DNA of 42,407 nucleotides from Prochlorococcus sp. MIT 0701 (lineage in GTDB: Bacteria > Cyanobacteriota > Cyanobacteriia > PCC-6307 > Cyanobiaceae): positions 1-42,407 of the forward strand of contig NZ_JNBA01000032.1 of assembly GCF_000760295.1 (NCBI RefSeq), in the 5' to 3' direction. The first letter of the stretch is position 1. Every line of letters starts with the position of its first letter. The position numbers and the translations under genes are program-made. This document shows, in pieces, positions 1,550 through 18,557 of the stretch. The notes beneath the pieces are model-generated. The model did not search any database and had not been told where the DNA came from. It saw only the letters and a program-made list of their open reading frames with translations.

Positions 1550-4500
1550 TTAAGTCGATAGCGGATCCTGGAAATAATCACCAGCAATGTCGTTATCGCT
1601 GCTGTCGCTATTGCCATCTCCTCCGATCACCCCTGTCGTACCTGAGCTTTCCAGGGATTCAACGAAGTCAGTGCCGGCTTCTACAGCGTTTTGATCCTTA
1701 AACGCTTGGTTATCCCAGGTCGTGTCGCCTGTTGTGCCTTGGTTATCCAGTTGCTCCCATGAAATTTCACTCTCGCCAAGGAAGGCATCTGTTGATGTTT
1801 CTGCTACTTGATGCAGGCTTTCGCCCCAGTCGGCATCCAACACAGCTAGATCAGCCATCGAAATCTGCCCATCAAAGTTGGCATCCACTCCTCGCGCCAC
1901 ACTCGCATCAACAAAGCCATCTCCATTTGCATCCACTGAATCGGGATCCTCACTGGCTTGTTGTTGTCTTGCTGCTCCAGCATTGAGATACGCCAGATCT
2001 TTCATCGAGACCCTGCCGTCGTAGTTGAGATCGCCTTGGAAGGTGATTAGGTTTTTGGAGCCCTTTTGATTTTTAAAGATGTCTGAGCCTGTTGCTTGAA
2101 GACTGAGGATGCCTTGGCTTAGATCAACAACATTGCCTGCAGCACCGGTGATCTCGATATCGGCAACCAGTTGCGCTGTTTCTTGGCCTGCTTGCACAAA
2201 TGCGCCATCAACAAAGCTGCCACTCTCGAGGTCTGTTGATGTTTGACTGTCGTCAGGTGAACTGATATAGAAACCAGAGCTCGTTAAACTTGCATTGGCA
2301 TTTGTTAGGCCAGTAATTTGTATGTCTTTTGCCTGAATGTTGCCAACATTGGTCCATTCACTTGTGGCTGTAATCGTATCGCCAGCTCGTACTAAATTTG
2401 TTTGTTTTGAGTTATAAGAGCCAATATCAAGATCACTACTTAAGATCAAGCCATCGCCTTGTTCTTCTAGATTGATTGTTGCCTCATAAAGGGTGACTTT
2501 GGTTCCTTCTACAGCTAAATCACCACCAAGATCGCGCAAGCTCTTGATCTCGCGATTGCTCAATCCTGATGCATCGGTGAGATCCTTAGAAAATACTGTT
2601 TCATCTTGATTGGCACTCAAGCCAAAGAACAGTGGTGTGCTGGGATCAAGGATCTTGCCATTGGAGTTTTGCGTGAGCGTATCGAGGCGAAACTCATTGA
2701 AGTTCAGATCAATCGATGCCAAAACACCACCATCCGCGCCGATGCTCGCTCCAGCATCGGCTAGATGGTTTCCATAAAGATCTCCTGGAACTAGATCACC
2801 AAGACTTGCAGCAGCAATACGGATTGTTCCCACATCATTATCGATGCGAACCGCATTGGCGATGGGTAGTTGGCCGCCAATGGTGATATCCGATGCCTTG
2901 ATCTCGTTAAACAGAAAAGGATCAAAGTTGATCGTGATATCTGCTGTTTCTAAGTCATATCCAGCTGCCAAGCTCTTGGCTGTGATGTCCAGGCGATAGG
3001 TGTCTTGCCAATCAACAGAATCGCCAAGCACTGCCAGTTGCTTGAGATCAGTTTGTGTGTCAGTGCCATTGATTGAGTGAAGGCTATAGCTCAGTTCCAG
3101 ATCGCTATCTGGTGTTAGTGAATAGGCTGGAGCATATTTACTCAGAAAAGCATCTTTACTACCATTATTGATCTGTCCATCAAGGTTGCCAGCTGTGTAG
3201 CCAGCGATATAGATCGAGCCGTCGCTGCCTGTTGTTAGCGCAGTGGCTTCGTCACTTGAAGCTGTACCTAATAGGTGGGTCCATTCTTTATTGCCATCAG
3301 GATCATATTTAGTTAAAAAGGCATCACGACTTCCACTATACGGTTTTTCATCAAGGTTGCCAAGTGTGTAGCCAGCGATATAGATTGACCCGTCGCTGCC
3401 TGTTGTTAGCGCATTGGCTTCGTTATTTGAAACTGTACCTAATAGCTGGGTCCAATCTTTATTACCATCAGGATCATATTTATCTAAAAATGCATATCTT
3501 TTAACACCTATTAAATTGCTGTACGGAGGAATAGTGTAAGCATTGCTATCGTCATAAATAGAACCAGCGATATAGATCGAGCCATCGCTACCTGTCGTTA
3601 AGGCATTGCCCGATGAATTTTTGTTTGGACTTAATGTATCGGTCCAAACCTCCGTGCCATCAGGATTATATTTAGTTAAATAAGGAAGAAAGTCGAGAGT
3701 AGCAGCGACATAGATCGAACCGTCGCTGCCTGTTGTTAGTGCTCGGGCATCGTCATATGAAGTTGACCCTAATAGATTGGTCCAATCCTTCGTGCCATCA
3801 GGATCATATTTTGTTAAAAAGGCATCACCACGTCCACTATGCGGTTTTCCATCAAGGTCTCCACCTGTAATACCAGCGATATAGATCGATCCGTCACTGA
3901 ATGTTGTTACCGCATGGGCATGTTCATATGAAGATGTACCTAATAACTGGGTCCAATCCTTCGTGCCATCAGAATCATATTTAATCAAGAGGGAGTCGGA
4001 GCTACCACTATTCGTCTGTCCATCAAGGTCGACAGTTGAGTAGCCAGCGATATAGATAGAACCGTCGCTGCCTGTTTCTAGCGCATAGGCCTGAATGTCA
4101 CTTGGTCCTAAAAACTGGGTCCAATGCTTCGTTCCATCAGGATCATATTTAGTTAAAAATACATCTTCGCTACCACTATTCGTCTGTCCATCAAGGCTGA
4201 AATTTGCATCGCCAGCGATATAGATCGAGCCATCGCTTCCCGTTGCGAGGTATTGGTCGCTTACATAGGAAGCACCCAATAGCCTCGTCCATTGTTTGGC
4301 TAGAGGAGGTTCCCAACTCTGTGTAATATTCGGATTACTTCTGGCTAGGGATATTTCAGCAATGCCTTGAAGTTCTGCTATACCAGGCCAATTAGGATTT
4401 TCACCATCATCCCAAAGACCTGATTCACCGATGTAGCCGTAATCCTGCCCATTCGGATCGCTGGCTGTTGAATTGTCTGGATTAGTGCCAGACCAGTTTG

Positions 4501-7500
4501 TATAAGTGGAACCACTTCTATCAGCCCACTGCCAATCTCCTTCTACCTTGTAATCACTGAAGCCAATCCACTTTTTAAGACTTAGATTCTCAGTTAGCCA
4601 CTGATTCTTTGCTGCATCATTAATCGTGACCAGATTCCCTCCAATACTTTGAGCGTTAGCTTCTGCTTCTTGCCATGAAGGCCCATCAACAATCACATAA
4701 GCCGAATCACCACGGCGTACGTAGTTGGTTGACATTGATGTGTCTTTGATCTCTACAGTGGCTGTATTGCCAACTTGCTCTGTGCGTAAAGCATCAGTAA
4801 ATAGTTTGACGTCTAAGCTTTCAGGGCCTTCCCTTGTTTGATCATTCCTGAGCGTATGGGAGAAAGAGAACTTACCTTCTGAATCAGTTTGGCTTGAGCC
4901 TGTTAAAGCACCTTCTTCAAAGTCTCCTTGATTGATACCAGTACCAGAAACTGACCAATGCAGTTCAGTTCCTGGTTCTACAAATCCTGTACTGACATTA
5001 GTTGTCAGCACCTGGCCTTCTTCTATTGAGCTGGAGGATGTTGTTAGCTCATAGGTTGGTGGCTGAGATGTATCTCTGATCTGTACATCGGCAACTATTC
5101 CTGCCCAGGTTGTGCCAGCAACAGGCTGGTTATGGGCTGCATCCGTGAATAGCTTGATACCTAGAGTTTCATCTCCTTCTGTCTTTGCATCTTTAGCGAG
5201 GGTATGCGAGAAGATGAACTTGCCTTCTGAATCAACCTGACCTGACCCTTGAATTTGCCCATCAGAGAGATCATCTTGATTGATATTCGCCCCAGTTAAT
5301 GACCAATGCAGTTCTGTGCCTTCTTCTACATATGTCGTACTGACAGTAGTCGTTAAAACATCGCCTTCATCAATTGCCTTGCTAGAGGTTGTGAGTTGAT
5401 AAAGCGGTTCTTTTGAAGTGTCTACCACTTCAATGGCTCTTGGCTCTACAACTTCCTGTGTGCGCTGTGGATCAGAGAATAACCTTATTTGAAAGGTCTC
5501 CAGATCTTCTGTTTTGAGATCCTCTGCAAGTGTGTGAGAGAAGGAAAATTCAGCAGCGAGGTCTGGTGTTTCTATATTGTTAGTCAGCTCTACTGTTCCA
5601 GAACCTGTTAGTTGCCCTGAACTAAAGTCTGATTGATCAATATTGTTGCCTGAGATCTGCCAATACAGTTCAGTACCCGGATCCACATAATTGGTATTAA
5701 CGCGGGTTGTTACAACATCGCCTTCTTCTAGATGAGTAGTCGTAGTGGTAAGACTATAAGCAGGAGACTTGGATGTATCTTGAATGATAATTGAAGCACT
5801 CTGTGCAACTTCATCTGTTCGTTGATAATCGGAAAATATTTTCACTCGTAATCGTTCTGCTCCTTCTGATTCACGATCATTCGCAATCACATGAGAGATC
5901 GTTGCTTGGCCTTGGGAGTCAAGATATTCCGTTCCCTTCAATTGACCTGAATTAACATCAGACTCTGTTATGTCATCTCCTGCTTCACCAACTAATGACC
6001 AATAGATTGGCGTACCTGATGGGAGATTCGTTGTATTGATTGTGCTCGTAAGAAGTTCCCCTTCTTGCAAGGACTCTTTTGAGCTGAAGAGCGAGTAAGT
6101 TGGAGTTAGAGAAGTGTCTATGATTTCAATCTCCAAGGTCTCGCCTACTTGGTTATCTCTTAAAGAGTCAGTAAATAATTTGATCTCTAAGTTTTCGTTT
6201 AGTTCTGTTTTGCGATCATTAGCGAATTCGTGAGTGAAATTCGCTTTTCCGAGTGCTCCGATGAGAATTGAGCCTTCTAAGTTTCCTTCTGAAAGGTCTG
6301 CTTTGGTTATGTTATTGCCATCTAAAGACCAGAACAGCTCTGTTCCTGGATCAATATTGGTCGTGCTGACATGAGTAGTGAGTCGTTTTCCTTCTTCTAT
6401 TATTGTTGATGAAGATGTTAATGCGTAAGTTGGAGTTTTGGATGTATCAACTATTTCTATCGATACTGGGTAAGCAGCTAACTCTGTTCTTTGCTCGTCA
6501 GAAAATAGGTTAAATTTGATTTCTTCGTTGCCTTCTGTCTTTTGATCATTATTTAGAGTATATGAAAGATTTATACTGCTGTTTCCTTGAGCGGTCCAGT
6601 CTCCATCAAGCTCGCCTGCCGCGAAATCATCTATATCAATATTTTCCCCTGAAAGATTCCAGTAGACCTTAGAGTTTGAATTGGCATCTAAGCTTTCTAT
6701 CGAGATGGTAAAAGATTGATCCTCTTCGGTTTGAGTCGTTGATGTCGTTACTTCAAAGCCTGCTTCATAACTGTATTTTGTAAGGTAAAAATCCTGGTTG
6801 CCCGTGTAACCCTTACCATCATCGCTATAAGTTTCACCATTGAAATTACCCTCTGTAGCGCCAATCAAATAGATTGAGCCATCTTCATATATAGCCATAT
6901 CAGCAGTATTCTGAGTTCTGGAAGCAGACATGGCTCCAGAAAATGTATTGCTAGCAGATGTAGAAATATAATTTCCATTAATTAGTTCACTGTTGTAGCT
7001 ATCAAAGTCGCCTGTTCCATCCGATCTAATCTTCGAGATATATACATCCATTCCATCTCCGAAAGACCAACTTGATCCTGCTGAAACGACTGATCCATCC
7101 TTATAGGTATCGATTTGACCCCCATAGTCAGGCGGGCTTCCGCCTAGCAATCTTGTCCATTCTCTATGGCCTTCACTAGTCAATTTAGATATAAAAACAT
7201 CTTCCTTAGAGCTCCATATGCCGCTGTGATTATTTTGCTCACCATACATATCTCCAGCCGTACTTCCAGTAACATATAGTGAATCATCAAACCCTACTGA
7301 TACTGACACGCTCCCATATTCATTTTCAGCACTGCCTATAAGGGTTGTCCAACTTCTATCACCATCTTTCGTGTAAGAACTGATGAATACATCTGCTGCT
7401 ACTCCATGATTATTTTGGCCATCAAGCACAGAACTAGTTGTGGTTCCGGAGACATAAACTTGACCATCACTATCAGTAGCTAGTGAGGAAGTAATATCAT

Positions 7501-10500
7501 AGGCCCAATCATTTCCTATCAGATTGATCCAATCAAAAGCACCATCGCTATCATATTTACTGATAAAGCTATTATTTCCTCCAAGAACGAAAAAATCACC
7601 TGTTACATAAATAGAGTCTTCTCTGTCTACGTGGATATCTTTTGGGGCTGATATATATCCAACTTCACCTGTATTATTGATTAATTTGCTCCATATCAGA
7701 TCTCCATCAGAAGTATGAGTACTAATGAAGCCCAGGCGTACTACATGCTTTACTGTCTCGCCTTCGTATTCTATTTTGTAATCCGTATCATCGCCAGCTC
7801 TTATAGTTCCTGCGATATGAATATTTCCATCTTCGGCAACTGTGACAGCATTCGTTTCTTTTGAAGCGTTTGTAATTTCAAATAAGTTATTCCATTGCTG
7901 CGTACCTTCGCTTGAATATTTGCGTATAAAGGATGATCCATCTACTGTTCCTGTTATGAATACATTCCCGTATCTATCAGTCGCTACTGAACTAAGAGAT
8001 GTTGCTTCATGATCATCTAATAACTTTGTCCAATGATGTTTATAGGTATTCAGTGGAATGCTTGTTGACGTGTCATTAATCAGAATATTTGAACTCTCGG
8101 CTACTTGATTAGATCTTGCTGGATCAGAGAAGACCTTGAGCTTTACGGTTTCGTCGCCCTCCGTCCCGTGGTCTTCTGCAAAAGTCTGCGAAATGATGAT
8201 TTTGCCTTCAGAATCAACCTGAGCAGAACCTTCTAATTCTCCAGCTTCTAAATCATTAGCAGTTATATTTCTCCCGCTAAGCCTCCAGTAAAGAGTCGCA
8301 TCTGGATCTGCATTAGTAGTAATAACTGTAGTTGTTAACTGTTGGCCTTCATTAACCTGGCTAGCGGAGGTTGATAATGTGTATGTGGGGTCAAGCGATG
8401 TATCGTTGATAGCAACTGAAGCAGTATTAGCGACTTGAACTGTTCTGGCAGAATCAGTAAAGATCTTGACTTTTAGATCTTCATTGCCTTCTGTTTTGCG
8501 ATCTTCTGCAAGCGTATGAGAGAAGGTGGCCTTGCCTTGAGAATCAACCTGCGCAGAACCTTCTAATGCGCCGGCTTCTAGATCATCTGCTGTGATGTTA
8601 TTGCCACTCAGTTGCCAGTAAAGCGTGGTGCCAGGGTCTATTTCGGTTGTCGTGATTGTTGTTGTTAGCTGTTGGCCTTCATTAACCTGGCTCGCAGACG
8701 TTGATAACGTGTAAGAGGGATCAAGCGATGTATCGTTGATGGCAACTGATGCTGTATTTCCTACTTGAGAAGATCGTGCGGAATCGGTATAGATCTTGAC
8801 TTGCAAGTTTTCATTGCCTTCTGTTTTTCGATCTAATTTAAGTGTGTTAGTGAAGCTGGCCCTACCTTGATCATTAACCTGCGCAGAACCTTCTAATTCG
8901 CCAGCTTCTAAGTCATCCTCTGTGATGTTATTGCCGCTCAGTTGCCAATAAATCGTGGTTCCAGGGTCAACAAACGATGTACTAATTATGCTTGTGAGAA
9001 CTTGGCCTTCATTGACTTGATCGGCGGAAGTAGAGAGGCTATATGTCTGTTGATCATCAAGATCATTCACCCCAAGAGTGAATGACTTCGCAACGGCTAA
9101 ACCTTCTGTATCTTTTGCTTGTAGCCGTACAGAGTAGCTATCTTTAGTTTCATAATCAGCAGCTTCATTAATGACAAGTTGATTGCCACTGATGCTAAAG
9201 AATGAATTATCTTGGCTGCCAGCTCCTGATAAGAATGAGAAGCTATGGTTGTTGCCTGAATCAGGATCCGTTGCTGATAGCGATACAATCGCAGTTCCAG
9301 CTGCTAGGTTTTCATCAAAGCTTGAGGCTGAAAGCGTTATATCGGTTGGAAAGTCATATGTTGAGCCATTGAAATTAATCCGTTCAATATTGAAGAGTTG
9401 ATCTGTTCCATCTCCCCCTCTCAAGGAGCTGAGGAGTTGATCTGTTCCATCTCCCCCTCTCAAAGAGCTGCTATCAGCAACTTGAAATGCTCCACTACTG
9501 CCATCCAGGCTTAAATTGTATTCACCAATATTTCCACTAAAGGCAGCTGTATCAAATCCTGCCTGGCCATCTATGAGGTCATTGCCTGATTCTCCAAAAA
9601 TAATATCGCTATTGTCTCCCCCTTGAATCGTGTCATGTCCATCTCCCCCTTGAATCGTGTCATATCCAACTCCCCCCTGAATCGCATTATGATAGTCGTT
9701 TCCTACTATCGAATCAGAAAATGATGAACCTTTCGCATTTTCGATAACAGCATTGCCTGTTGAGTTATAAGCAATCGTGTAACCCTTAAGTTCACCATCA
9801 ACTTGAGAAACAAAGCCGCCACCTCCTGGCTCATTCTCTAATGTTGCATTGCGTAGGTCAATTGTGACTGATCCAGTAGCACCTGATGCATCAATGGTGT
9901 CATTGCCTGCAGCATCCCAGATTGACTGAAAGCCATTTAAATTTAAATCTAGTGAGTAAGTGTCATCGCCAGTTTTGTTGGATTGGTTAGGGCCATAGAG
10001 ATACTGGATGGCTGCAATATCAAAAGCACCGATTCCGGTTAAATATCCATTGGTATCTGATAAGGAAGGAGCATATTGATTCGCATCGTTATTGTTGTAG
10101 GTCATCACCGACCAAGGAGTGGCGTTTAAACCGTTATCGCCTCCATCAGTCCATGCTGGTGGCCATTCACCAGATTCAGTTGGCTCATCTGTTGGATTTT
10201 CTATACCGGGGAAAGGCGGGAATGGAGTTCCATAACCGTCTCCGCCAGTGGCATGTGGATGCTTTAAACCAAGTGCATGGCCAAATTCATGAGTATAAGT
10301 TAGGTAATTGTTTCCACCAGGTTCAAGACTTTGGCTTGTTGTCTCGTCGTAGTATGCCCTATTGATTTGTATAAGACCAGACAATAGTGCGTCTGGGTGA
10401 GTTATCCATCCCCAGCCTGGTCCATCGTTCGGATCATCAACTATTGACCACTGAATATTTGCTGGATTATTAAACTGATCAGGATCTGTATTTTCAATAA

Positions 10501-10828
10501 ACCTTAAATTGCCAACATCTGAGTAAGCAGACATTGCGCTTAATGCCGCATCCTTTTCAGCTTGTGTCAAGTCTAAATTGTTTACATTTAAGTCAGGCGC
10601 AAGATCTGTTATATAAACGTCAAAAAGCTCCTTGAATTTATTGTTAACCGCGGCCCACTCTCCAGCCGGAGAAAAATGATACTCAATATCTACTATGACA
10701 TTGTTGTCAGGATCTAGATTCCCCCACTTGCCCCCATCTATCAGCCCTTTTATATATGCATTGCCTCCATTTAGTTCATCCCATGTGTTAACAGAATCTA
10801 ATACAATCTCTGGAGGATTTGGTTGCAT
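1550..10828 (-). CDS. Giant secreted RTX metalloprotease/adhesin with propellers, C-type lectin and dockerin-like loops (3092 aa)
   Basis: The N-terminal 250 residues form a serralysin (M10B) zinc protease: HEFGHALGLKHPH at 180-192 (zinc ligands H180, H184, H190, catalytic E181) and the Met-turn SVMTY at 240-244. RTX calcium nonapeptides follow (about 376-425, GGDGHDTIQGG type). Then come a cadherin-like domain (about 497-590), three Calx-beta-like repeats (about 600-920, each ending in INDTS-like motifs), a seven-bladed propeller of SBBP-type repeats (about 926-1353), six more Calx-beta-like repeats (about 1355-2030), a C-type lectin domain (about 2033-2165, WIGFSD ... YTNW ... DYGYIG ... 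LWDD), and a second seven-bladed propeller (about 2176-2569, DGSIYIAG core). A cohesin-like stretch (about 2570-2930) and two or three dockerin/EF-type calcium loops (about 2931-3004) close the protein. There is no Sec signal, which fits type I secretion as known for serralysins. No transporter genes lie nearby. It probably digests or binds external protein and glycan. The exact partners are unknown. Confidence 0.9.
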   Translation of the reverse strand: MQPNPPEIVLDSVNTWDELNGGNAYIKGLIDGGKWGNLDPDNNVIVDIEYHFSPAGEWAAVNNKFKELFDVYITDLAPDLNVNNLDLTQAEKDAALSAMSAYSDVGNLRFIENTDPDQFNNPANIQWSIVDDPNDGPGWGWITHPDALLSGLIQINRAYYDETTSQSLEPGGNNYLTYTHEFGHALGLKHPHATGGDGYGTPFPPFPGIENPTDEPTESGEWPPAWTDGGDNGLNATPWSVMTYNNNDANQYAPSLSDTNGYLTGIGAFDIAAIQYLYGPNQSNKTGDDTYSLDLNLNGFQSIWDAAGNDTIDASGATGSVTIDLRNATLENEPGGGGFVSQVDGELKGYTIAYNSTGNAVIENAKGSSFSDSIVGNDYHNAIQGGVGYDTIQGGDGHDTIQGGDNSDIIFGESGNDLIDGQAGFDTAAFSGNIGEYNLSLDGSSGAFQVADSSSLRGGDGTDQLLSSLRGGDGTDQLFNIERINFNGSTYDFPTDITLSASSFDENLAAGTAIVSLSATDPDSGNNHSFSFLSGAGSQDNSFFSISGNQLVINEAADYETKDSYSVRLQAKDTEGLAVAKSFTLGVNDLDDQQTYSLSTSADQVNEGQVLTSIISTSFVDPGTTIYWQLSGNNITEDDLEAGELEGSAQVNDQGRASFTNTLKLDRKTEGNENLQVKIYTDSARSSQVGNTASVAINDTSLDPSYTLSTSASQVNEGQQLTTTITTTEIDPGTTLYWQLSGNNITADDLEAGALEGSAQVDSQGKATFSHTLAEDRKTEGNEDLKVKIFTDSARTVQVANTASVAINDTSLDPTYTLSTSASQVNEGQQLTTTVITTNADPDATLYWRLSGRNITANDLEAGELEGSAQVDSEGKIIISQTFAEDHGTEGDETVKLKVFSDPARSNQVAESSNILINDTSTSIPLNTYKHHWTKLLDDHEATSLSSVATDRYGNVFITGTVDGSSFIRKYSSEGTQQWNNLFEITNASKETNAVTVAEDGNIHIAGTIRAGDDTDYKIEYEGETVKHVVRLGFISTHTSDGDLIWSKLINNTGEVGYISAPKDIHVDREDSIYVTGDFFVLGGNNSFISKYDSDGAFDWINLIGNDWAYDITSSLATDSDGQVYVSGTTTSSVLDGQNNHGVAADVFISSYTKDGDRSWTTLIGSAENEYGSVSVSVGFDDSLYVTGSTAGDMYGEQNNHSGIWSSKEDVFISKLTSEGHREWTRLLGGSPPDYGGQIDTYKDGSVVSAGSSWSFGDGMDVYISKIRSDGTGDFDSYNSELINGNYISTSASNTFSGAMSASRTQNTADMAIYEDGSIYLIGATEGNFNGETYSDDGKGYTGNQDFYLTKYSYEAGFEVTTSTTQTEEDQSFTISIESLDANSNSKVYWNLSGENIDIDDFAAGELDGDWTAQGNSSINLSYTLNNDQKTEGNEEIKFNLFSDEQRTELAAYPVSIEIVDTSKTPTYALTSSSTIIEEGKRLTTHVSTTNIDPGTELFWSLDGNNITKADLSEGNLEGSILIGALGKANFTHEFANDRKTELNENLEIKLFTDSLRDNQVGETLEIEIIDTSLTPTYSLFSSKESLQEGELLTSTINTTNLPSGTPIYWSLVGEAGDDITESDVNSGQLKGTEYLDSQGQATISHVIANDRESEGAERLRVKIFSDYQRTDEVAQSASIIIQDTSKSPAYSLTTTTTHLEEGDVVTTRVNTNYVDPGTELYWQISGNNIDQSDFSSGQLTGSGTVELTNNIETPDLAAEFSFSHTLAEDLKTEDLETFQIRLFSDPQRTQEVVEPRAIEVVDTSKEPLYQLTTSSKAIDEGDVLTTTVSTTYVEEGTELHWSLTGANINQDDLSDGQIQGSGQVDSEGKFIFSHTLAKDAKTEGDETLGIKLFTDAAHNQPVAGTTWAGIVADVQIRDTSQPPTYELTTSSSSIEEGQVLTTNVSTGFVEPGTELHWSVSGTGINQGDFEEGALTGSSQTDSEGKFSFSHTLRNDQTREGPESLDVKLFTDALRTEQVGNTATVEIKDTSMSTNYVRRGDSAYVIVDGPSWQEAEANAQSIGGNLVTINDAAKNQWLTENLSLKKWIGFSDYKVEGDWQWADRSGSTYTNWSGTNPDNSTASDPNGQDYGYIGESGLWDDGENPNWPGIAELQGIAEISLARSNPNITQSWEPPLAKQWTRLLGASYVSDQYLATGSDGSIYIAGDANFSLDGQTNSGSEDVFLTKYDPDGTKHWTQFLGPSDIQAYALETGSDGSIYIAGYSTVDLDGQTNSGSSDSLLIKYDSDGTKDWTQLLGTSSYEHAHAVTTFSDGSIYIAGITGGDLDGKPHSGRGDAFLTKYDPDGTKDWTNLLGSTSYDDARALTTGSDGSIYVAATLDFLPYLTKYNPDGTEVWTDTLSPNKNSSGNALTTGSDGSIYIAGSIYDDSNAYTIPPYSNLIGVKRYAFLDKYDPDGNKDWTQLLGTVSNNEANALTTGSDGSIYIAGYTLGNLDEKPYSGSRDAFLTKYDPDGNKEWTHLLGTASSDEATALTTGSDGSIYIAGYTAGNLDGQINNGSKDAFLSKYAPAYSLTPDSDLELSYSLHSINGTDTQTDLKQLAVLGDSVDWQDTYRLDITAKSLAAGYDLETADITINFDPFLFNEIKASDITIGGQLPIANAVRIDNDVGTIRIAAASLGDLVPGDLYGNHLADAGASIGADGGVLASIDLNFNEFRLDTLTQNSNGKILDPSTPLFFGLSANQDETVFSKDLTDASGLSNREIKSLRDLGGDLAVEGTKVTLYEATINLEEQGDGLILSSDLDIGSYNSKQTNLVRAGDTITATSEWTNVGNIQAKDIQITGLTNANASLTSSGFYISSPDDSQTSTDLESGSFVDGAFVQAGQETAQLVADIEITGAAGNVVDLSQGILSLQATGSDIFKNQKGSKNLITFQGDLNYDGRVSMKDLAYLNAGAARQQQASEDPDSVDANGDGFVDASVARGVDANFDGQISMADLAVLDADWGESLHQVAETSTDAFLGESEISWEQLDNQGTTGDTTWDNQAFKDQNAVEAGTDFVESLESSGTTGVIGGDGNSDSSDNDIAGDYFQDPLST
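9395..9472 (-). repeat. Two tandem 39-bp units inside the giant gene
   Basis: Two almost identical 39-bp units (9395-9433 and 9434-9472) encode two adjacent copies of a 13-residue block of SSLRGGDGTDQLL type around residues 454-478, just after the RTX region. They differ by about one base. The length is a multiple of three, so the frame is kept. The near identity suggests a recent duplication by slippage, which adds one RTX-like turn. Confidence 0.85.
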
Positions 10829-12058: not shown

Positions 12059-12961
12059 TTAGAGTAGGTATTTATCGAGGATGTCATCCAGCCTTGTGTT
12101 GTGCCTCTTTGGGTGGGTGGTGAGTGTCACCTTGAGTGGTTCTGCGTTTGGTTTTGTTTCCCAGTTAATGACCATCTCTTCGATCTCTTTTTTTTCTTCC
12201 TCAGTCATTGGTTCCTCTAAGTCTTCGTATAGAGATGCGGCTCCCTCCCAGCAGGCCATATTCATCTGGAACTTAGCTAGGTCATAGTCGATACGGCCTG
12301 TGTCTAGATCAATTGCTTCAGCACTGTGCTCAAGCAGCCAATCATCCAACAGTGCATTTTCTCTCTCTTGGCGTTCAACAGCTTCGTCAAAGCTCTTCTC
12401 CTTTGCTGCATGTAGGGCTTTCAGAGTTGAGCCACCTTGTCTGTCTCTTCCCCCTGCATCCAGCCACTCTCTATTGAGTTGTTTCTGGCTGATCTTCTTG
12501 CTTTTTGTCAGGCTTCTGATGTCTCCTCTGCGGATTGATTCAGCCAACTCCAGGTAGTAATACCTCAAAGCTTCAGCTTCAGTGATCCTCCACTGTTCAG
12601 CGCCTTGCCGCAGCAATACACATTCACTTTCAGTAAGCCTGATCTGTAGCTCATGATTCCTTAGACCAGCTTCAATGCCTCTGTTAGCACCCATAAGTGC
12701 AGAGTGTGATCGGTGCCAAAGCACTGCGCTATCTTGCTCATACATGGCTATCCGTATCGCCTCAGAGCTGTTCTTGCATTGAAGAATGTTGGTTAAGCCT
12801 TCCAGGACTTGAAGCTCATTGTGAGTCATCCGGATGGTTTTCTTCTTGGTCTTCTTTTCTTTGTTAGTCCTTATCGGGTGTTTGGTCGTATCGAACCTAT
12901 GCTTATGGATAGGAAAATAAGTACCTAACGTGCCCTTATTGAACTTCTTATTCTTAGCCAT
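12059..12961 (-). CDS. Unknown 300-aa protein with two ribbon-helix-helix-like segments
   Basis: I do not recognise a named family. The N-terminal 42 residues are very basic (KEKKTKKKTIR at about 34-44). Residues about 42-76 (IRMTHNELQVLEGL ... SSEAIRIAM) have the strand-helix-helix pattern of ribbon-helix-helix DNA-binding proteins. A second similar segment occurs at about 105-140 (LQIRLTESECVLLRQG ... TEAEALRYYYLEL). The middle is charged and probably coiled-coil (about 180-215), and the C-terminus is acidic with an EEPMTEEEKKEIEEM stretch. A DNA-binding regulator or relaxosome-like accessory factor of a mobile element is the best guess. It shares strand with the recombinase 0.8 kb upstream. 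No clear ribosome binding site precedes the ATG. Confidence 0.65.
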   Translation of the reverse strand: MAKNKKFNKGTLGTYFPIHKHRFDTTKHPIRTNKEKKTKKKTIRMTHNELQVLEGLTNILQCKNSSEAIRIAMYEQDSAVLWHRSHSALMGANRGIEAGLRNHELQIRLTESECVLLRQGAEQWRITEAEALRYYYLELAESIRRGDIRSLTKSKKISQKQLNREWLDAGGRDRQGGSTLKALHAAKEKSFDEAVERQERENALLDDWLLEHSAEAIDLDTGRIDYDLAKFQMNMACWEGAASLYEDLEEPMTEEEKKEIEEMVINWETKPNAEPLKVTLTTHPKRHNTRLDDILDKYLL

Positions 12962-13800: not shown

Positions 13801-14976
13801 CTATACACCTCTCTGTGCCCAGCTGTCTAATACCTTCCACACCTTCTCTGCTTCTCTACGTAATAACTCCTCTGGGTATTGCCCATAAGTCATCGACATC
13901 TGACTACCTGCAAAGTGTCCAAGGATCCGCTCAACTGTAAACTCCTCAGCACCTGCTAATCGTGCTGCTGTTCTGTATCCGTGTCTGAAACTATGGGGGG
14001 TTAATTCATCGTGTGGTCTCAGCTTATTGAAGTGTCTTCTAAACGTCTGAGCATGGACTTCCACAACACCTTTACTTTTAACAAGTATTCCCTTAGTCCG
14101 TTCAGCTAGCTCCTCTGGAATCGGTACCTCCCTAATGCTCGCCTTGTTCTTTGGCTTCCAGTCTAGGGTAGGTCTAATGATTAATTTATTAGTTTCAATT
14201 GTACAGTTAAGCGCTTCTCCGATCCTTACGCCTGAGAATATCAATAATTGAAGGATTGCCCTTTGTCTAGGGGCTAGATTCCCTCTTTGAGCCCACATGT
14301 ATTGATAGTCTTCTGGCTTAGCTTTATACAAATGCCTTGTTGAGGCAGCACTCGTATCAACTCGATCAAAGGGGTTGGTGAACTCATCATCTGTAAACCC
14401 ACCCTTGATGAGAGATGAAATTAGATTCGATAAACCACTGGCTCTACAGGCAATGGTTAGTGGGCTTAATCCCTGAGCTTCCATTCTCTCAACCATCTCC
14501 CTTACATCTGCTGTCTTGACTGATAGTGGGCCAGCCTTAACAGCTCTTGCTGGTAGTGCCCTCAGGCCCGCCTCAACGTTCTCTTTCCAGCTCTTACTTA
14601 CCTCTCCACCCCTCTTCCTTTGATGCCTCTTTGCAGCGATCTCAATAGCCTTATCCCAGTTGATCCCTCCTACTACCTCCTCTACTTCTAGGTCTACTTC
14701 TTCTTCATTGAATAGGTTTATTGCACGTGTGGTCGCAACCCTTTCCTTTCCTGTATCTGGATCTAGCTCTGTATACGTGATGGGTTCAAACCACTTGTAC
14801 TTAGTTGGGTCTGCAATCCTCTCTAGCTCTGCTTGAGCCTCAGGCCATCTTCTTAGTGCCTCTGATCTGATCTTGGTCTTAAGGCTGATGTGATGCCTCT
14901 TCCCTTTGATCATCTTCACTGCATACCAATAGCCGGAACTATCGATACGCCGTGGTCCTGTTGCTGCTCTAGGCAT
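13801..14976 (-). CDS. Tyrosine recombinase/integrase (391 aa)
   Basis: The C-terminal half carries the full tyrosine-recombinase catalytic set: Arg251 in FSGVRIGEAL, a candidate Lys near 276-278, HSFRHG with His328 and Arg331, LGHF with His354, and the nucleophile Tyr364 (or Tyr367) in SMTYGQYP. Residues about 105-215 form a SAM-like core-binding domain, and the N-terminal about 60 residues resemble an arm-type DNA-binding domain (SSGYWYAVKMIKGKRHHI). The length is usual for island or phage integrases. The gene begins three bases after the stop of a 59-aa acidic ORF, so both are probably one transcript. It probably inserts or excises the surrounding element, with a tRNA gene as the likely target. 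The initiator tRNA gene at 17.3 kb is the nearest candidate. Confidence 0.93.
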   Translation of the reverse strand: MPRAATGPRRIDSSGYWYAVKMIKGKRHHISLKTKIRSEALRRWPEAQAELERIADPTKYKWFEPITYTELDPDTGKERVATTRAINLFNEEEVDLEVEEVVGGINWDKAIEIAAKRHQRKRGGEVSKSWKENVEAGLRALPARAVKAGPLSVKTADVREMVERMEAQGLSPLTIACRASGLSNLISSLIKGGFTDDEFTNPFDRVDTSAASTRHLYKAKPEDYQYMWAQRGNLAPRQRAILQLLIFSGVRIGEALNCTIETNKLIIRPTLDWKPKNKASIREVPIPEELAERTKGILVKSKGVVEVHAQTFRRHFNKLRPHDELTPHSFRHGYRTAARLAGAEEFTVERILGHFAGSQMSMTYGQYPEELLRREAEKVWKVLDSWAQRGV

Positions 14977-15257: not shown

Positions 15258-15655
15258 AATCCAACTATGGCCACTACAGCAGGCTGCAATCAGACGGGAT
15301 CAGTGAATGGAGCCCTGCCTTTTTAAAGCTATCGGCAACGCTCGATGGATGTGCCAATCGCTATGAGCTTTTCTGCCAGCGCTATCGCCATCACGGCAAA
15401 GCTGCTCCCAAGTGCCACTGGGGCTCACGGATGCTGAAGCGATTTGTTCAGAGCAGCAGGAGCAACAGAAGCAAGAGAAATCGAATATCACCAGGCCAAC
15501 AACGATTGCCATGGGATTGGGATGTTCGCCTCAATCAAATCCCTGAGGATTGGCATCAGGTTGCGGTGAGATTTAGAAAAACAAATGGAATCAGAGATGG
15601 AGATCAAACTCTCAGACTGTGGTGATTAAGTTAGGGATATAAGTAGTTTTAGAGT
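15258..15655 (+). pseudogene. RAYT C-terminal remnant A
   Basis: Translation from about 15260 gives SNYGHYSRLQSDGISEW, then QRYRHHGKAAPKCHWGS, PGQQRLPWDWDVRLNQIP and a stop at 15623-15625. This continues the RAYT pattern exactly where the gene at 150-629 breaks off (DPYSN). An in-frame TAA at 15257-15259 stands where the family has a Tyr, and no catalytic N-terminal half remains, so this is dead. It is a direct repeat of remnant B at 16.5 kb, roughly four-fifths identical by eye, and the similarity runs about 30 bases past the stop. Confidence 0.75.
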
Positions 15656-16036
15656 CAAAGAAGTTGAAGGTAAATTTGTGATGAATGCCAAGAACTATTG
15701 CTGATTGATGCCTGCTGAACAAGACATGAAGGCAACTTGTCGAAAGTCAATGGTGCCAGGCATTGGATAACTTTTTTGTGATTCGAGAGTGATTTAAGAA
15801 ATAAAAAACCCCTGCTAATACAAGGGCTGTGAGTGTGTAGTTCTGTGTTGTTTAACATATCGCGACAGCGACAGCGGTTCCTATTTGATTTCTTCGGATC
15901 TTCTGGGCAGACATTTTCAGATCCGACATTCTTCCGCTATGCAGATCCCTCCTATGATCGAACAGGCAGGTCAGCATGTTGCCTCATTTCTCCCAGCTGT
16001 TCTTAACGGTCCCGAATGGTTGCCAATGGTTGAGTG
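15656..16036. other. Gap downstream of the lanthipeptide precursor gene
   Basis: About 380 bases without a supported gene. It contains a terminator-like hairpin for the minus strand at 15803-15828. I see no second leader peptide, synthetase or transporter fragment. Confidence 0.4.
15803..15828 (-). terminator. Likely rho-independent terminator downstream of the lanthipeptide precursor
   Basis: On the minus strand AGCCCTTG and CAGGGG can pair as a short GC-rich stem and are followed directly by six Ts. It is about 210 bases after the stop of the precursor gene, the only minus-strand gene that reads into it. Confidence 0.5.
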
Positions 16037-16393
16037 TTAAGTGTTCCTGTTCACCCAGAAAGTTCGATCATGATCGGTCTTACATAAGTCACCATCAGTC
16101 CTCTTAGTCACCATCCTGTTCACCTTCCAGTCGAAGTGTTGCAATGATGATCGATTCCAACAGCCCCGGCAACCATCTGTATTGCCAGGATAACCCCCAG
16201 CCACACCTTCCAGTTCACTGTCCGAAAGTTCAGCATTAAACCAGCTCTTAAAATCATCGGCAGAAATCATAAAACCTGCTTCTTTTGCAATCGCAGTCAC
16301 TGCATCAACATCAGCAGCGGCTTTGAGCTGTTCCAGAAGGCTGGTGTCGGCTTTGACTTTTTCAAGGAACGCTTTGAGTTGTTCTTCTGACAT
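16037..16393 (-). CDS. procA: Nif11-leader lanthipeptide precursor (prochlorosin/ProcA-like) with a long core
   Basis: The first 67 residues are a typical Nif11-type leader: MSEEQLKAFLEKVKADTSLL at the start, AIAKEAGF, the SADDF element, and ELSDSELEGVAGG ending in the double-glycine cleavage site at 66-67. Prochlorosin precursors share this leader, and ProcM then dehydrates Ser/Thr in the core and joins them to Cys. The core here is 51 residues (68-118), longer than the roughly 13-32 of most known prochlorosins. It holds three Cys (75, 78, 104) and several Ser/Thr, so up to three lanthionine rings are possible. No LanM or LanT gene is in the window. The gene lies between two direct-repeat RAYT remnants on the opposite strand. 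The gene symbol marks family membership only, and the core may have been lengthened by frameshift. Confidence 0.85.
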   Translation of the reverse strand: MSEEQLKAFLEKVKADTSLLEQLKAAADVDAVTAIAKEAGFMISADDFKSWFNAELSDSELEGVAGGYPGNTDGCRGCWNRSSLQHFDWKVNRMVTKRTDGDLCKTDHDRTFWVNRNT

Positions 16394-16465
16394 TGGTTGT
16401 TGGGTCGATTTTTAATATGTGTAGCCCAACCCAAGCTTGAAGACTGCAAGCATCGATTGAATTGA

Positions 16466-16861
16466 ATGAAATTTCCACATTCCACAAGAGCTGGATAGCA
16501 GAGGGCATCAGTGAATGGCACCCAACCTTTTTAAAGCTCTCGGCAACGCTTGATGGATGCTCCAAGCGCTATGAGCGTTTTTGCCAGCGCTATCGCCATC
16601 ACAGTAAAGCTGCTCCCAAATGCCACTGGGGTAGTCGCAAACTTAAACGGCTGGTGAGCAGTGCAAGAACTAGAAGTAAGAAGAAGAGGGTTTCACCAGG
16701 TCAACAACGATTGCCTTGGGCTTGGGATATTCGCCTCAATCAAATTCCAGAGGAGTGGCATCAACTTGCCATGAAATTTAGAAAGGCAAATGGAATCAGA
16801 GATGGTGATATTCAGTTCACGTTCTGAGAGTGAATTCAGGAGATATAGGTATTGGCTAGAG
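16466..16861 (+). pseudogene. RAYT C-terminal remnant B
   Basis: The frame reads ISEWHPTFLKLSATLDGC, RYERFCQRYRHHSKAAPKC, PGQQRLPWAWDIRLNQIP and stops at 16825-16827. It matches remnant A at 15.3 kb in the same orientation and lacks the HxH and Tyr nuclease half. An open frame does start at 16462, but upstream of ISEW it is shifted relative to remnant A, so the ATG is probably fortuitous. It begins about 70 bases upstream of the lanthipeptide precursor gene, which is transcribed the other way. Confidence 0.75.
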
Positions 16862-17298: not shown

Positions 17299-17375
<77 letters not shown>

Positions 17376-18407: not shown

Positions 18408-18557
18408 GCAGACTTTTAGGCTTCAGAGAGCCTGGCAGAGACGCGCCCCCTTTGATGATGAGGCTTGTGATGAAGTCCATGGTTGGTGCCAAATAACTAA
18501 GCAATGGAACTTCGAGTTGGTGTTAATTGCTACTAATTCAAAGTGGTGTTTTAACTC

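Follow-up and report, generated by a model that had tools for sequence, protein, structure and literature searches.

A ProcA-type lanthipeptide precursor with a 51-residue core in Prochlorococcus sp. MIT 0701, a genome of long prochlorosin cores

The ProcA precursors of strain MIT9313 provide the closest point of comparison for the gene described here. In both, a Nif11 leader with a double-Gly end precedes a hypervariable core of Cys, Ser and Thr. The leader–core junction of ProcA is of the (D/E)ELExxxGG type (PMC10783134). The likeness extends to the surroundings of the genes: promoter-side and terminator sequences are conserved, the same tRNA-Met locus is occupied and the cassette is flanked by transposase sequences. 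The pairing of procA cassettes with TnpA-REP transposases is known already from Laurenceau et al., the work cited as reference 39 in PMC10783134, and the cassette studied here resembles that association in being accompanied by Y1/REP transposase sequences. The synechococsin (SyncA) precursors are a further related group. These share the leader family and a ProcM-type enzyme, and long cores have been noted among them in strains EAC657 and A18-25c (PMC10783134). The locus lies on a contig of Prochlorococcus sp. MIT 0701 (NZ_JNBA01000032.1), the whole 42,407 nucleotides of which are referred to as the window.

The original prediction placed a prochlorosin-like precursor gene at 16037–16393 and left its strand unstated. 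The coordinates are correct, and the gene is read from the minus strand (table 1). The Nif11-type leader ending in GVAGG was recognized accurately: residues 1–67 match TIGR03798 (leader_Nif11) at 2.6e-23 and 82.1 bits, against a cut-off of 32.3 bits, and PF07862 (Nif11) at 6.8e-17. The junction reads SELEGVAGG (residues 59–67), so that a Ser replaces the first acidic residue of the ProcA motif. The 67-residue leader is followed by a core of 51 aa, YPGNTDGCRGCWNRSSLQHFDWKVNRMVTKRTDGDLCKTDHDRTFWVNRNT. Its length and Cys spacing are as predicted, with Cys at positions 8 and 11 (CRGC) and again 26 residues later, at position 37. The description of the core as rich in Ser and Thr needs correction: these residues are present, at an ordinary abundance (8 of 51, or 15.7%, versus 18.2% across MIT9313 cores). 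The leader has a dN/dS of about 0.13–0.27 against eight homologues, a range that indicates purifying selection. DNA homology to other procA genes ends where the leader ends. No homologue of the core was found, and it is common to no relative.

Judged by its sequence, the gene is an authentic ProcA-type precursor (Nif11 leader, class II lanthipeptide), and every testable defining feature of that family is present. It has a Nif11-type leader within the usual size of about 60–70 residues, a double-Gly-type junction motif and a hypervariable core that is able, with three Cys and eight Ser/Thr, to form (methyl)lanthionine. A ProcM-type LanM with a CCG zinc motif is encoded in the same genome. At 51 residues the core lies outside the usual length (13–31 in MIT9313), which is a habit of the family and not a defining requirement. 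A ProcM-linked LanT exporter with a C39 peptidase is absent from the genome; this is a property of the pathway and not of the precursor.

Table 1. Coordinates of the precursor gene, its parts and its flanks within the window.
Feature	Position	Strand	Basis
procA-like precursor gene	16037..16393	-	118 aa, ATG at 16393, TAA at 16039-16037; TIGR03798 and PF07862 matches
Leader of Nif11/ProcA type (residues 1-67) with a double-Gly cleavage motif, ELEGVAGG, at its end	16193..16393	-	profile match
51-residue core, Cys at 8, 11, 37	16040..16192	-	no homologue found
First copy of putative degenerate in-frame partial duplication (TDGCRGCWNRSSLQHFDWKVNR)	16114..16180	-	core self-alignment
Second copy of putative degenerate partial duplication (TDGDLCKTDHDRTFWVNR)	16045..16099	-	core self-alignment
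Promoter-side region CTTCAAGCTTGGGTTGGGCTACACATA	16394..16473	-	conserved with MIT9313 procA genes; within 92% syntenic block
Intrinsic-terminator-like hairpin	15807..15828	-	common to many procA genes
Unique DNA, stop codon to shared downstream repeat	15841..16036	-	repeat and terminator comparisons
tRNA-Met bordering island with procA cassette	17299..17375	-	same place in MIT9313
REP-type Y1 (TnpA-REP) transposase remnant, C-terminal part	16504..16809	+	upstream flank of cassette; 31 matches in genome
Second remnant of same REP-type Y1 transposase	15296..15604	+	downstream flank of cassette

The gene sits between intact flanks that are conserved across the family. The 80 nt upstream have CTTCAAGCTTGGGTTGGGCTACA-ATA in common with MIT9313 procA genes. 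Downstream, the stretch 15840–15640, which holds the terminator hairpin, is repeated behind many procA genes of this genome, MIT9313 and AG-412-I05. The distance from stop codon to terminator is 208 nt, exceeding that of most relatives. On the promoter side, positions 18500–16347 of the window, tRNA-Met included, are 92% identical to MIT9313 903354–905500. This synteny includes the promoter and extends 47 nt into the gene; it is then lost inside the leader and picks up again at 15840, by the terminator. At the same locus MIT9313 carries a procA gene whose core has 23 residues and is unrelated to the present one. From their shared position, the two genes are taken to be positional counterparts that differ in leader subtype and core. 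Full-length copies of the flanking transposase carry PF01797 (Y1_Tnp, 9.6e-15). A search of six picocyanobacterial genomes and a phage collection gave no convincing match to the 353-nt unique stretch, and a match to the protein was likewise absent from phages and viral contigs.

Other features of the island were recorded. A tyrosine recombinase (13801–14976, minus strand) bounds the procA-cassette island together with the tRNA-Met. Interspersed with the procA cassettes of MIT9313 are four more partial copies of the 3' region of tRNA-Met (L106 8293–8424, 11023–11115, 12279–12408 and 16307–16465), the pattern expected if integration at the tRNA had occurred repeatedly; the window itself yielded no second tRNA-Met copy. 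A 300-aa protein without a Pfam family (12059–12961, minus strand) aligns over 174 residues, at 35% identity, with a 347-aa protein (L116 1436–2479) located beside another integrase upstream of procM; genes of this sort may recur in these integrating elements. A 3092-aa ORF (1550–10828, minus strand) resembles by eye a repetitive extracellular protein, with a metalloprotease-like start and with Ca-binding-type and repeated domains.

Long cores are a property of the whole genome. Leader matches in the genome number 19; ten leader-bearing genes are intact, and their cores measure 14, 30, 45, 49, 51, 52, 54, 56, 61 and 67 residues. Cores of 45–67 residues are thus found in eight of ten genes here, versus 13–31 residues in 29 MIT9313 genes (Mann–Whitney p = 2e-4); the latter measurement bears out the expectation that prochlorosin cores are short. 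In other picocyanobacterial genomes, 30 genes gave core lengths of 12–35 residues. Broken leader copies are also present: one has lost its start (C7:8606), one has an in-frame stop (C26) and one is truncated (C2:15677). When the downstream DNA undergoes dinucleotide shuffling, 4.9% of the shuffles give a frame as long as that of the window gene, so the length of this gene alone is only mildly surprising. Genome-wide, however, the long-core frames are longer than such shuffles give (combined p = 4e-4), and the long cores as a whole are not due to chance. A terminator was located behind four of them. In three the stop codon lies 18–34 nt before it, within the MIT9313 range; only the window gene departs from this. 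Loss of a stop followed by read-through therefore does not explain the set and was rejected as a general cause, and the suggestion that a frameshift had carried translation past an original stop is not supported for the long cores collectively. The composition of the long cores changes along their length. Within the first 30 residues 20 Cys were seen against 10.4 expected (p = 0.005). Beyond residue 30 the figures are 7 and 7.1. With Cys enriched only in the first part, the core starts look like prochlorosin cores and the tails do not. The new ring topology originally proposed for the window peptide is accordingly possible but unsupported.

Two further frames deserve mention. AG-412-I05 has one core of 51 residues, NLFRLRRGGVASTGANCTCGSTGCHTSVGDFKSYWGFNKQSRNTNPGMHRG (L123 6305, G002:C32), though that genome keeps the exporter. 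In the MIT 0701 genome, a 168-residue frame (G000:C23:41183–40680, minus strand; L012/L014) carries two tandem Nif11 leader-like domains, then one double-Gly motif and a Gly-rich core without Cys.

The modifying enzyme and the exporter have fared differently in this lineage. ProcM (G000:C7 4336–7584) is 1082 aa long, matches TIGR03897 at 1e-243, has all domains with conserved WCHG and LCCG zinc-ligand motifs, and is by these features intact. In AG-412-I05 the neighbours of procM are a LanT-type C39 exporter, with a frame of 746 codons, and a second gene of ABC type. Both of these occur in MIT9313, 92–95% identical to those of AG-412-I05 (92% for LanT itself), and there the operon adjoins a 53-codon remnant of the procM 3' end (L155 7494–7652), which shows that procM and the operon were linked ancestrally. 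In the present genome, rated 99.98% complete, no orthologue of the ProcM-linked LanT was found. The best match is 36% identical and is an orthologue of a different transporter, one also present in G004, a genome where procM was not found. When the MIT9313 operon DNA was searched for here, only a short piece beside procM matched. This piece (G000:C7:7577–7825, L116, minus strand) encodes the last 83 residues of the second (partner) ABC protein, to which it is 73% identical, and is interrupted by an internal stop. Because a LanT orthologue is absent and the sole remnant lies beside procM, the ProcM-linked exporter/leader-peptidase operon has most likely been deleted in this lineage. Other C39 transporters remain, including one at C36:11733 that is 97% identical to MIT9313, and these might export the peptides. 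Elsewhere on C36 (114347–118418; L142, L115), the Nif11 precursor whose core has 67 residues lies side by side with a YcaO gene, a full-length Y1 transposase and an oxidase of ThcOx/SagB-like type. No YcaO was found in MIT9313.

The explanation preferred here, to which an even probability is given, is that the core of an authentic ProcA-type precursor lengthened as constraint on it loosened, the lineage having kept ProcM and lost the dedicated exporter. Loosened constraint is favoured because most sister genes are long, ProcM is kept and the exporter is lost. The gene lies in its transposase-flanked cassette beside tRNA-Met, where the MIT9313 procA has 23 core residues. Its core would have grown to 51 residues, possibly via a degenerate in-frame partial duplication, within a lengthening of procA cores across the genome. 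This would have taken place in a lineage with an intact ProcM from which the linked exporter/leader-peptidase operon had gone. We infer that loosened selection was the cause of the lengthening, which may have been connected in time with loss of the exporter. ProcM is expected to bind the leader, dehydrate Ser and Thr, and close thioether rings for the most part on the N-terminal cysteines. Predicted rings join Thr5 to Cys8, and Cys11 to Ser15 or Ser16; a third may join Cys37 to Thr32 or Thr39. Selection probably does not maintain the C-terminal tail, which would simply be tolerated; relaxed constraint is a likelier source of it than a ring of a new type. Three observations run counter to this explanation. 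The long-core frames stay open beyond the shuffle expectation, unlike the outcome of pure neglect; AG-412-I05 retains the exporter yet has its own 51-residue core; and the C39 transporters still present might carry these peptides out.

The open frames and conserved leaders leave room for a functional long lanthipeptide. In that case the lineage would have moved to cores of 45–67 residues, ProcM would make multi-ring products and another C39 transporter would export them. This is a doubtful but serious possibility. Besides the excess frame length, it is consistent with the purifying selection on the leader, the intact ProcM, the normal terminator spacing of several long cores, the C39 transporter at C36:11733 and the 'long SyncA core' of Synechococcus EAC657 and A18-25c (PMC10783134). 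Against it count the lack of Cys enrichment beyond residue 30, the loss of the dedicated exporter operon, the breakage of several sister genes and the lack of any core in common with a relative. A related proposal is quite improbable: the lineage would have exchanged exported short prochlorosins for ProcM-modified lanthipeptides of 45–67 residues that the original exporter does not secrete, which act inside the cell or leave it by another exit, the window gene being a two-module example. It is highly improbable that the YcaO/SagB-like pair acts on the long cores, instead of or besides ProcM. The YcaO at C36:114347, with its oxidase, adjoins the 67-residue-core precursor, and MIT9313 has short cores and lacks YcaO; but AG-412-I05 and G050 carry YcaO too and have mostly short cores, and the window gene is unlinked to YcaO and has a leader of the ordinary ProcA kind.

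Two accounts address the growth of the window core itself. A core of some 22–27 codons may have been doubled in frame, after which the copies diverged; the result would be two TDG..C...W-VNR modules, each of which could serve as a ring unit. When the core DNA is aligned with itself, nt 13–79 match nt 94–148, both ends in frame, with a score of 42, which was reached by none of 500 dinucleotide shuffles and by 17 of 3000 real 156-nt windows (top 0.6%). The corresponding protein units match at p = 0.02, and an exact 11-mer, TCCTGTTCACC, recurs in frame at 16045–16055 and 16114–16124, a spacing of 69 nt. Since eight long cores were tested, significance becomes marginal and the signal is suggestive only. 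The other long cores lack the pattern, except weakly C1:53944 (p = 0.017), and the best self-match over the full 353-nt unique stretch is not significant (equalled in 48 of 300 shuffles). Such a duplication is unlikely; it is compatible with loosened constraint, for which it would supply the route of core growth. The other account is a private frameshift, in which an indel took translation of an ancestral core of about 24 residues beyond its stop. The +1 frame does read ...CRGCW-IDHHCNTSTGR-stop; it ends after about 24 residues, which is typical for a core, and supplies one more Cys as well as Ser/Thr. Out-of-frame stops are so frequent, though, that one at such a distance is expected by chance. 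For this reason neither this end nor one in the third frame (AVAVAIC-stop, 24 nt before the terminator) was counted as evidence. A frameshift would also leave the seven other long cores unexplained, and an orthologue carrying the supposed short ancestral core was not found. It is decidedly improbable.

Taken alone, the window gene is one more hypervariable prochlorosin precursor, and its genomic context is the more useful. Here a natural strain combines an intact ProcM and long cores throughout its genome with the absence of the ProcM-linked exporter, and it would offer a direct test of whether export keeps cores short. The same strain bears on whether prochlorosins need secretion and hence on their function. 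For EAC657 and A18-25c, the long SyncA cores are described in a section on YcaO-associated clusters (PMC10783134), and they are likened to the present ones by description only. In the TnpA-REP association, the window gene differs in being flanked by transposase remnants only. From the ProcA system of MIT9313 it is set apart by a core of 51 residues in place of 13–31, and by a genome in which the ProcM-linked exporter operon has most likely been lost.
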